Part shown: positions 25,436-30,700 of the stretch, in pieces | Layout of the letters: every line of letters begins with the position of its first letter | Position numbering within the stretch: position 1 is the stretch's first letter | DNA from: Ensifer sp. LC163 | GTDB lineage: Bacteria; Pseudomonadota; Alphaproteobacteria; Rhizobiales; Rhizobiaceae | Length of the DNA stretch: 64,000 bases | Assembly (NCBI RefSeq): GCF_001695855.1 | Contig: NZ_MBSS01000013.1 | Coordinates: 1-64,000 of the forward strand | Direction of reading: 5' to 3' | Position numbers and translations under genes: made by a program | The notes under the pieces: model-generated | Told to the model about the DNA's origin: nothing | The model's database searches: none | The model's input: the letters and a program-made list of their open reading frames with translations, nothing else

Positions 25436-26275
25436 ATGAACATGAGCATTGCGGCAATCATCGCCCCGCAGCGGGCGTTTGGAAAAGGACGGCTGGTGGC
25501 CAAGGCGGCCGTCGGTCGAACGGGCATTGCCGAGCTTTACCAGGAAGGCTGCGCCAAGATCCGGCTGCCGAAAACCTTCGACAGCTCCATGGAGGCCGTG
25601 TTGATCAACTCGTCGGGCGGGCTGACCGGCGGTGATCGCATGCTCTGGGAGATCGAAGCCGGTGCGGCGACCGAGCTGACCATCACCACGCAGGCCTGCG
25701 AGAAGATCTACAAGGCCAGCGCCGGCACGGTCGATGTCACGACACGCATTGACGTGGCAGCGGGGGCGCGGGTCGAGTGGCTGCCGCAGGAGACGATCCT
25801 GTTCGATCGCGCCTCGCTGTCGCGCTCACTGGACGTCGAGCTTGACGACGGCGCGACATTTCTTGGCGTCGAAGCCGTGCTGCTCGGCCGCAGGGCCATG
25901 GGCGAAGCGGTGCACTCAGGGCTCTTCCGCGATCGCTGGCGCATTCGCGTCGATGGCCGGCTGCTGCACGCTGAGAACCTGACCTTCGCCGACGATATTG
26001 CCGCCCTTGCGGTGCGCGCTTCGGTCCTCGGTGACAATGTGGCCTTTGCGACGTTGTTTTATGCCGGACCCGATTGCGAATTGCTGCTGCCGCGACTGCG
26101 CGCGCAGCTTGAAACGCAAGCGGGGGCGGGCGTCAGCCATGTCCAGGTCGGTGGTCGCGACAAGCTGGTTGCGCGTTTTGTAGCAGCGGACGGCTTCTCG
26201 CTCAGAAAAATCCTCATCCCGGTCATTTCGCACTTGCGCAAGCAAACGACAGTGCCGAAAGTCTGGGTCCTCTAA
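25436..26275 (+). CDS. ureD: Urease accessory protein UreD
   Basis: A 279-residue UreD/UreH protein, which forms the platform binding apo-urease and UreF-UreG during nickel insertion. Family segments are [48 protein letters not shown] and [10 protein letters not shown] 25436 or the second ATG at 25442 may be used. It is the first gene of the urease cluster; ureA begins 25 bases after its stop. Confidence 0.95.
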
Positions 26276-26300: not shown

Positions 26301-26603
26301 ATGAATCTTACCCCGCGCGAAAAGGACAAGCTGTTGATTTCCATGGCCGCGATGGTTGCCCGCCGCCGCCTGGAGCGCGGCGTCAAGCTCAACCATCCCG
26401 AGGCGATCGCGCTGATTACCGATTTCGTCGTCGAAGGTGCGCGTGACGGTCGATCGGTCGCCGAACTGATGGAAGCGGGCGCCCATGTGATCACCCGCGC
26501 GCAGGTGATGGAGGGGATCGCGGAGATGATCCACGACATCCAGGTCGAGGCGACCTTCCCGGATGGCACCAAGCTTGTCACCGTGCACGAACCGATCCGC
26601 TGA
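26301..26603 (+). CDS. ureA: Urease gamma subunit
   Basis: A 100-residue structural subunit of urease (UreA). Typical are [20 protein letters not shown] at the start and [22 protein letters not shown] at the end. With UreB and UreC it forms the nickel enzyme that splits urea into ammonia and carbamate. Length is exact for the family. Confidence 0.97.
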
Positions 26604-26615
26604 GGAGGCTGAGAG

Positions 26616-26870
26616 ATGCTGGCACTGCGCCCGAACTGCGAATGCTGCGACAAGGATCTGCCGCCCGACAGCCGCGAAGCGATGATCTGCACCTTCGAGT
26701 GCACGTTCTGCGTCGATTGTGTCGAAGGCACGCTCGGTGGCACCTGCCCCAACTGCGGCGGCGAGTTTACCCGGCGCCCGGTGCGCCCGGCCGCGCTGCT
26801 GGCGAAGTATCCGGCATCGACCGAACGGGTGCTGAAGCCGCAAGGCTGCGCCGACGCCAACGCGGCCTGA
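26616..26870 (+). CDS. DUF1272 zinc-ribbon-like protein
   Basis: An 84-residue Cys-rich protein between ureA and ureB. It has eight Cys in C-x-C-C (9-12), then C-x4-C-x2-C-x2-C and C-x2-C-G-G, a pattern matching DUF1272. It likely binds one or two zinc ions; function is unknown. It starts 12 bases after ureA with GAGGCTGAGAG as ribosome site, and ureB follows 17 bases later, so it is co-translated with urease structural genes. A role in metal handling is only a guess. Confidence 0.85.
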
Positions 26871-26887: not shown

Positions 26888-27193
26888 ATGATCCCAGGGG
26901 AAATCATTGCCGCAAGCGGCGAGATCGAGCTCAACCACGGCGTCGAGACGGTGGCGATCGAGGTCTCCAACACCGGCGATCGGCCGGTGCAGGTCGGCAG
27001 CCACTATCATTTTGCCGAAACCAATGCCGGGCTCGACTTCGACCGCAGTGCGGCCCACGGCAAACGGCTCGATATTCCCGCGGGCACCGCTGTCCGCTTC
27101 GAGCCCGGACAGAAAAGACTGGTCACGCTCATTCCGCTTTCGGGCAAGCGCGAGGTTTACGGCTTCCGCCAGCAGGTCATGGGAAAGCTATAG
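26888..27193 (+). CDS. ureB: Urease beta subunit
   Basis: A 101-residue UreB. The start [16 protein letters not shown], the motif [11 protein letters not shown] and the tail [14 protein letters not shown] are family features. ATG 26888 follows GGGAGAGGGAACAG. The following lprI-like gene starts 2 bases after the stop. Confidence 0.97.
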
Positions 27194-27195
27194 GG

Positions 27196-27618
27196 ATGAG
27201 GATGCGAACGACGCTGATCGTGGGCGCCTGGCTGCTGGTAGCCATACCGGCCCTGGCGCAGGAGGACGATGTCGATTGCGCCAATACGATGACGCAGGCG
27301 GACATGAACATCTGCTCGAACAAGGACTATGAGACGGCGGACGCCGAACTCAACAAGGTCTACAAGCAGACCGTTGCGGCGATGAAGGCCAAGGACAAGG
27401 AACTTGCCGACATCAGCGCCGACTATGTCGGTGCGGAGGAGGCGCTGAAAAAGGCGCAGCGCGCCTGGATCGGCTACCGTGACGGCCAGTGCGAGCTTGC
27501 CGGCTTCGAGGCGCGCGGCGGATCGATGGAGCCGATGCTGGTGTCCGGTTGCCTGGCGCAACTGACCACGGCACGCACCAAGGAACTCAAAGAGCTGCTC
27601 GAGCCCACGGAAAACTGA
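27196..27618 (+). CDS. LprI/DUF1311-family secreted protein
   Basis: A 140-residue protein with a signal peptide (hydrophobic residues about 6-20, likely cut after PALA-Q). The mature part has paired Cys and the DUF1311 pattern CANTMTQADMNICSNKDY-x-TADAELNKVYK, then AWIGYRDGQCELAGFEARGG. Members with this fold include the lysozyme inhibitor LprI. It is probably periplasmic and disulfide-bonded. Tight spacing (2 bases from ureB, 5 bases to the next gene) makes it part of the urease transcript, though urease is cytosolic. Confidence 0.85.
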   Translation: MRMRTTLIVGAWLLVAIPALAQEDDVDCANTMTQADMNICSNKDYETADAELNKVYKQTVAAMKAKDKELADISADYVGAEEALKKAQRAWIGYRDGQCELAGFEARGGSMEPMLVSGCLAQLTTARTKELKELLEPTEN

Positions 27619-27623
27619 CCCTG

Positions 27624-28268
27624 ATGTCTGGTCGCACCATCATGATCGTGGGGAACGGAGAGGTGCCGGAAGGTGCTGCCGCGACCATTGATGCGGCCGA
27701 TATCGTCATCCGCTTCAACGATTGTCGTTCCGTCGGCGCCGGCGGGATGAGGACCGATATCGTCGCCGTCTGCAACACGGGCCGGCCGGCGTTTGCCATG
27801 CTCGGCGGCGGGCGCTGGAAGAACAGCGCCCCGGTGCGGCAGGCGCGCGAGATCTGGAGCGTGCGATCGGCTAGGAAATTTGCTGGCCTGCGCGCGGCAT
27901 TGGCCGAAACACACCCGGACCTCGATGATTTCTGCGACGATTATACCGCCGGTTTCGAGAGTTTTGCGGCGTCGACCGGGCGGGCGCATCGGGTCATCGC
28001 CAGCGCGTCTCATGAGCGGTTGGACCGGGATTTGTCCCGGTTTGCGCCCGGGCCTTATGTGGTGCCGTCGAGCGGCATGGTGGTGATCGCCGACGTGCTG
28101 TCCGGTTTTGCGGCAGCTGATGATGATGTCGTTCTTGCCGGTTTCGGCCATGTCGGCTGGGCGTTGCATCCCTTCGCTGCCGAGCGGCAGTTCGTCGACG
28201 CCCTTGTTGCCGAAGGCCGTCTTCGTCGTCTTTCCCCTTCTTCTTCAGACTTGTCCCAAGGAGCCTGA
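27624..28268 (+). CDS. GT29 (sialyltransferase)-like protein of the urease operon
   Basis: A 214-residue protein annotated in relatives only as a urease operon accessory protein. I see three segments like the sialylmotifs of glycosyltransferase family 29: L-like (IMIVGNGEV, then [12 protein letters not shown], residues 6-33), S-like ([14 protein letters not shown], then VVLAGFG, 147-175) and VS-like His182-x4-Glu187 in HPFAAERQF. The spacing and order match. No signal peptide or TM helix is evident, so it should be cytosolic. It has no known role in nickel assembly. It lies 5 bases after the LprI-like gene and 4 bases before ureC, whose ribosome site AAGGAG is inside its 3' end. Confidence 0.7.
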
Positions 28269-29998: not shown

Positions 29999-30700
29999 TT
30001 GTCTCGAAAAAGCGGGATCTGGCGGGTCCTCAAGTGGACCGCGTATGGCGTGTCGGCACTTATCCTGGCTGCCGTTCTCGGGACGGTCGTCCCGCGACCG
30101 CTGCTGCCGAACACGGCCACGGCCGCGGCGGTTGTGTCGGCTGCCGCCGGCGAGCGTATCCTGATCCTTTCCGGTCCGATCCACACCGATATCGCCATTC
30201 CGCTCAATGAAGAGACCCGTGCTCGGTTCGCCTTCGCAGGCGAGGCGGGCGTGCCGCTTGATCATCCGGAGGCGCGATGGCTGATCTTCGGCTGGGGCGG
30301 CCGTTCGTTCTATCTGGAAACGCCGACATGGTCGGAACTGAAGCCGATGCCGGTCGTAAGGGCGCTGACGCTCGACCGCTCGGTCATGCATGTGGATATC
30401 GCCGGGGCGATCGTCGAACCCCAGCCTTCGGTCGAAAGCGTCGATCTCGAGCGTGCCGAGTTCGAGAAGCTCATGACGTTCATCTCTGAAAGCTTTGCCA
30501 GGAACGGCAGCGCCGTCGTTCCGGTCGAGGGCTTTTCCTATGGCTATGCCGACCGCTTCTTTGAGGCGGAGGGCACGTTCAATGCGCTGTTCGGATGCAA
30601 CACCTGGACGGCGCAGGCTCTGAGAGAAGCCGGATTGCAGACGGGGTTCTGGAGCCCTTTACCTTCCACCCTCGGCCTGTCCTTGCTGCTCCACAACTGA
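29999..30700 (+). CDS. TIGR02117/DUF2459 family membrane-anchored protein
   Basis: A 233-residue protein with one N-terminal TM segment (about 10-28) and a periplasmic domain with ILILSGPIHTDIAIPL, WLIFGWGGRSFYLETPTW, VIPVEGFSYGYADRFFEAEG-like and FGCNTWTAQALREAG segments. These resemble the family TIGR02117, known for occurring beside urease genes; its function is unknown. The conserved His, Tyr and Cys-Asn-Thr might be catalytic (NlpC/P60-like architecture is possible). The start is taken as TTG 29999, 14 bases after ureC, for lack of an upstream ATG; it is not certain. Confidence 0.75.
   Translation: MSRKSGIWRVLKWTAYGVSALILAAVLGTVVPRPLLPNTATAAAVVSAAAGERILILSGPIHTDIAIPLNEETRARFAFAGEAGVPLDHPEARWLIFGWGGRSFYLETPTWSELKPMPVVRALTLDRSVMHVDIAGAIVEPQPSVESVDLERAEFEKLMTFISESFARNGSAVVPVEGFSYGYADRFFEAEGTFNALFGCNTWTAQALREAGLQTGFWSPLPSTLGLSLLLHN

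Follow-up and report, generated by a model that had tools for sequence, protein, structure and literature searches.

The 64,000-nucleotide stretch of contig NZ_MBSS01000013.1 analysed here (positions 1 to 64,000, hereafter the window) comes from Ensifer sp. LC163, a soil bacterium akin to root-nodule symbionts. It contains a urease operon and, within it, a gene for a protein of 214 amino acids, here called X, which runs from an ATG start to a TGA stop (Table 1). Pfam gives the gene order UreD, UreA, DUF1272, UreB, LprI, X, UreC, DUF2459, UreE, UreF and cobW/UreG. An earlier note on this DNA had placed X between ureB and ureC, which is correct as to the order, but a gene of the LprI family intervenes and X does not adjoin ureB. 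The note had also described X as tightly coupled to ureC translation. This is plausible because of the gene layout, as only four bases lie between both genes and an AAGGAG is contained in the final codons of X ahead of the ureC start. No signal peptide or membrane helix was apparent in X when its sequence was read by eye. An artefactual open reading frame is ruled out by conservation and purifying selection, and the comparisons below place X in a lid-less GT29-like subfamily lodged in the urease operon.

Table 1. Features of the urease operon and of gene X in window coordinates
Feature	Position	Strand	Basis
X, lid-less GT29-like putative glycosyltransferase, 214 amino acids	27624..28268 (stop codon included)	+	Sequence comparison, motif conservation
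L-motif-like segment of X, residues 9-32, begins VGNG	27648..27719	+	Aligned to sialyltransferase sequences; G10, R30, N32 in 126/126, N11 in 125/126
S-motif-like segment of X, residues 148-175, PSSGM...VVLAGFG	28065..28148	+	Aligned to PSTG...GF of ST6GalNAc2; G151, G173, F174 in 126/126
VS-like H182-x4-E187 of X, presumed catalytic base	28167..28184	+	H182, E187 in 126/126; like the C-terminal HxxxxE of L100 and L104
ureD	25436..26275	+	PF01774
ureA	26301..26603	+	PF00547
DUF1272 small Cys-rich protein, ureA–ureB interval	26616..26870	+	PF06906
ureB	26888..27193	+	PF00699
LprI-family gene, directly 5' of X	27196..27618	+	PF07007
ureC, start 4 bases past the X stop codon	28273..29985	+	PF00449, PF01979

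The most familiar GT29 enzymes are sialyltransferases of the eukaryotic Golgi. By computation, X has a GT-A variant 2 fold like that of ST3Gal1 and ST6Gal1, and GT29 chains score up to 12.8 against it, above the other groups compared (GT42 and Maf). PF00777 is the sole glycosyltransferase family in the Pfam listings for X and its relatives, some of which match it with E-values of 2e-5 and 3e-8. The GT29-like fold that the earlier note had proposed is borne out in this comparison; a structure lacking it was not encountered. For the window protein alone, phmmer returned no match among the PDB sequences and an NCBIfam scan no family. Pfam matches to DUF2623 and EutK_C were rejected, being below the cut-off, confined to short stretches and present in 7 and 2 of 62 members, respectively. 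X is likely restricted to the order of its host, because a search across the class (E up to 1e-8, at most seven candidates scored per genome) yielded X-like proteins in only 2 of 385 genomes, namely the host and one other member of its order. Other PF00777 (GT29) matches, separate from X, were found in the order as well, in 7 genomes out of 199 and up to three per genome (L100-L112; here and below, L and G numbers denote loci and genomes of our collection).

The L-, S- and VS-like motifs read by the earlier note are all present and follow each other in this order, their key residues being retained in 125 or 126 of 126 aligned sequences (the window protein is one of them, and some rows are nearly identical to each other). 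Nine residues are identical throughout, namely those so marked in Table 1 and G178, while N11, P148 and S149 are identical in 125 sequences. The segments are thus conserved among homologues and no chance resemblance. The conserved histidine of the VS motif is reported as the catalytic base of GT29 enzymes (PMC10225777). From this histidine on, the C-terminal end of X resembles by eye the ends of the bacterial GT29-like proteins L100 and L104; a motif filter had left three of the 13 other PF00777 loci for this comparison by eye. Between F174 of the S motif and H182 lie seven residues in 125 sequences and eight in one. If H182 is the VS histidine, this gap leaves no room for motif III, which is hence missing, and we filed X as a GT29-like variant rather than as a full member of the family.

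The same 126 sequences were placed in a tree (FastTree only, midpoint-rooted). They comprise the best 80 of 122 genome_contigs relatives, the window protein, L083, L093-L099 (which stand in for L084-L090) and L117-L153, without L082 and the partial matches L091 and L092. Among the 80 relatives, the closest to X is that of Ensifer adhaerens SD006 with 95% identity. In this tree, 35 sequences form a distant clade (support 0.95). The other 91 make up a second clade (support 0.983), in which 78 sequences are urease-linked and members without urease branch off at several places. Distant homologues of X often adjoin glycosyltransferases. At least one of nine recurrent gene families lies within 5 kb of X at 25 of the 35 distant-clade loci and at none of 11 control loci, a count that is descriptive and partly circular because the families were picked for recurring there. 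The controls included two urease-linked loci (L152 and L153) and some with short flanks (L094). The families are single-linkage clusters, of which two (f3 and f21) fell outside the Pfam scan. When one member of each of the other seven was scanned, six proved to be GT25, GT4, GT28-like or GT2-like, and these six alone account for 21 of the 35 loci. One GT4 family is presumably lpcC-like. The seventh (f6), of 233 amino acids and with a DCD motif, gave no Pfam match at 1e-5; it recurs near distant-clade X in about ten loci (e.g. L121:6690-7391) and looks like a glycosyltransferase partner not described before.

GT29 enzymes use sugars activated by cytidine monophosphate (CMP). The sialic acid synthase family NeuB (PF03102) had no match in the host, whose assembly is 96.93% complete. 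Of 30 further genomes with X, chosen from the 83 loci, 21 likewise gave no match. The host harbors KdsB (G000:C34, an equivalog match above cut-off), while its second PF02348 match is GlmU-like. A supply of CMP-activated 3-deoxy-D-manno-oct-2-ulosonic acid (CMP-Kdo) was found in the host in this way, the one CMP-ulosonate for which this could be shown; the host gave no sign of making sialic acid or another nonulosonate itself. Since the host has KdsB and no NeuB match, CMP-Kdo is the likelier donor as judged from supply, and X is unlikely to be a sialyltransferase in the literal sense. A precedent is the Arabidopsis GT29 protein RCKT1/MGP2, proposed to be a CMP-Kdo transferase as the rhamnogalacturonan II (RG-II) of the mutant is devoid of Kdo (PMC11288761). 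It shares with X the GT29-type character, an organism in which sialic acid is scarce or absent, and CMP-Kdo as the inferred donor; unlike X, it possesses a transmembrane segment and acts on pectin RG-II, its activity being deduced from the mutant and not from an enzyme assay. The name CMP-Kdo transferase is also given to lpcB (PMC11103875).

On balance, we favor the view that X is a GT29-like glycosyltransferase that acts on surface sugars, probably with CMP-Kdo, and is housed in the urease operon without being a urease assembly factor. X would then be a small cytosolic, inverting and probably metal-independent enzyme of the bacterial GT29-like subfamily and would hold a CMP-activated sugar, most likely CMP-Kdo, in a Rossmann-like core that carries the L and S motifs. 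His182 would take the proton from the hydroxyl group of the acceptor, with CMP as the leaving group. A probable acceptor is a precursor of a cell-surface glycan, such as lipopolysaccharide core or K-antigen, at the cytosolic face. X may have originated among surface-glycan genes and been transferred to the urease operon in an ancestor of the group of Rhizobium, Sinorhizobium and Shinella, and through its probable translational coupling with ureC the protein would be produced along with urease. Computation bears out the fold, the conserved motifs, the place in the operon, the purifying selection and the glycan neighborhood of many distant homologues, from which catalysis, donor, acceptor, the direction of the transfer and co-expression are deduced. 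A rather doubtful extension of this idea is that induction of urease leads the cytosolic X to add Kdo to a surface glycan and thereby couples urea use to surface remodelling.

Several observations weigh against a surface-glycan enzyme. X of the window sits in a urease operon and not next to glycan genes, and the persistent linkage to ureC, which lies nearby at 77 of the 83 loci with urease-type X, could mean a urease-related job. The glycan context carries the circularity mentioned above, and at 10 of the 35 distant-clade loci no member of a recurrent family was found. The window protein alone reaches 11.4 bits against PF00777, below the cut-off of 23, and a PF00777 search of the host genome gave no match. 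Motif III is missing, and a HMMER alignment sets His182 on the WHHY segment of ST3Gal1, which we take to be motif III, and not on the VS motif. Lastly, NeuB matches in 9 of the 30 X-bearing genomes make a nonulosonate donor possible there.

The linkage to ureC, which at 70 of these loci lies within 100 bases of the X match, would suit a dedicated urease helper, active in the cytosol on a urease subunit, an accessory protein or a target related to nickel, which it would glycosylate or bind. A table for Rhizobium tropici names a urease accessory protein at the matching locus tag; its first value, -0.78, is close to the -0.76 of ureC (PMC5936775; that this gene is X is taken from gene order). We nevertheless regard such a helper as unlikely when the distribution of both genes is considered. 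Among 151 genomes of the host's family, 124 possess UreC and 51 X-like proteins; urease-type X is found in 25, in 21 of them next to ureC (gaps of up to about 700 bases, judged by eye from two tables). Both types of X were split by E-value, with 25 genomes at or below 4.1e-79 and 30 genomes from 7e-46 to 7e-34, or 6e-20 for G306; four genomes have both, and partial second matches in G280, G298, G268 and G282 were left out of the counts. X thus stands beside UreC in 21 of the 124 UreC-bearing genomes, far from being present wherever urease is, and a role as a general urease factor was rejected on these numbers. Distant-type X stands beside ureC in none of its 30 family genomes, as judged from tables compared by eye.

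Conversely, X is found without ureC at six of the 83 loci (L030, L031, L036, L049, L068 and L076). UreC is encoded elsewhere in four of these genomes. No UreC match at E up to 1e-50 was obtained for the genome of L049 or for that of L076, which is metagenome-assembled. Two Shinella records are instructive, since weak matches to a ureD fragment and to ureE (L036:5015-8300) or to fragments of ureA and ureB (L049:4958-5700) flank an intact block of DUF1272, lprI and X, which suggests that urease was lost around the retained block. X genes away from ureC are intact. The ratio of non-synonymous to synonymous substitution rates (dN/dS) amounts to 0.15-0.26 in four pairs in which both members have no ureC nearby and to 0.11-0.19 in six urease-linked pairs, with some dS values saturated. 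X is therefore under purifying selection also where urease is gone from the locus, and the linkage of X and urease is needed for neither side. Because X accompanies so few of the UreC genes and remains under selection at loci that lack urease, the role in nickel or urea metabolism raised by the earlier note is doubtful at best. At L153 (G254), the ureC match beside X begins only at residue 160, so that ureC is possibly truncated and X kept.

The partner gene lprI lies within 400 bases of X at 77 of the 83 urease-type loci, and DUF1272 was found at 68. Since lprI stays with X where no ureC is nearby (L036, L049, L068, L076, L149 and L150), one may think of an envelope-protection module with the urease operon as a mere expression site, in which LprI inhibits periplasmic lysozyme-like enzymes and X alters an envelope glycan. 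We consider this improbable: lprI is not beside X at six of the 83 loci, an lprI family was seen in L149-L153 only and not beside members of the distant clade, and LprI is a family name only here. At L149:1350-6973 and L150:6587-12278, the lprI-X pair follows a cluster of a GMC oxidoreductase and cytochrome c.

Even less probable is a non-catalytic X, be it a sensor of CMP or nucleotides with a retained fold or a gene whose retention serves translational coupling to ureC. The missing motif III, the short lid and the four-base spacing to ureC would fit this idea, which the earlier note had raised as a non-catalytic use of the fold, but the presumed catalytic His182 and Glu187 are invariant, and X genes that are not near ureC remain intact, with purifying selection acting on them. 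We also consider it improbable that X is more closely akin to Maf or GT42, nonulosonate transferases that share the broad fold, given the higher scores of the GT29 chains and PF00777 as the only glycosyltransferase family in the Pfam listings.

If induction of urease does make X add Kdo to a surface glycan, a urease operon would for the first time be tied to glycosylation of the envelope, and the motif-III-less bacterial branch of GT29 would gain a first activity. This branch is compact, has the presumed catalytic residues and mostly no evident sialic acid synthase in the genomes checked, which makes X a soluble candidate for what the GT29 family did before sialic acid, with CMP-Kdo as an answer open to testing. 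A positional name would be corrected as well, as the so-called urease accessory gene is probably a glycan enzyme. Changes in surface polysaccharides are therefore worth seeking in rhizobial urease-operon mutants.

Compared with the GT29 enzymes ST3Gal1, ST6GalNAc2, ST6Gal1 and ST8Sia3 of CAZy, X is a short protein with 16-21% identity to the sialyltransferases and without an apparent membrane anchor, lacks motif III and a cysteine in the S segment of the window protein, and is unlikely to use a sialic acid donor. A bacterial GT29-like protein is less of a surprise than the earlier note had assumed, since such sequences from alpha-, gamma- and epsilon-proteobacteria (19 of 23 alphaproteobacterial) were reported in 2018 (PMC5811610). 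According to that paper, they share with X the L, S and VS motifs, the mostly alphaproteobacterial origin and the lack of a membrane anchor and of conserved disulfide cysteines; they are described with motif III, unlike X. In the open-licence literature searched (titles and abstract openings), we found no publication linking bacterial GT29-like proteins with the rhizobial urease cluster and noticed no X-type gene. A urease cluster of Rhizobium leguminosarum was reportedly described by Toffanin et al. in 2002. By its title it is of the same kind, and a R. leguminosarum strain in our collection (L065) has the same gene order as the window. The DUF2459 gene directly 3' of ureC (29999-30700 in the window, by Pfam) is found in part of the related operons.
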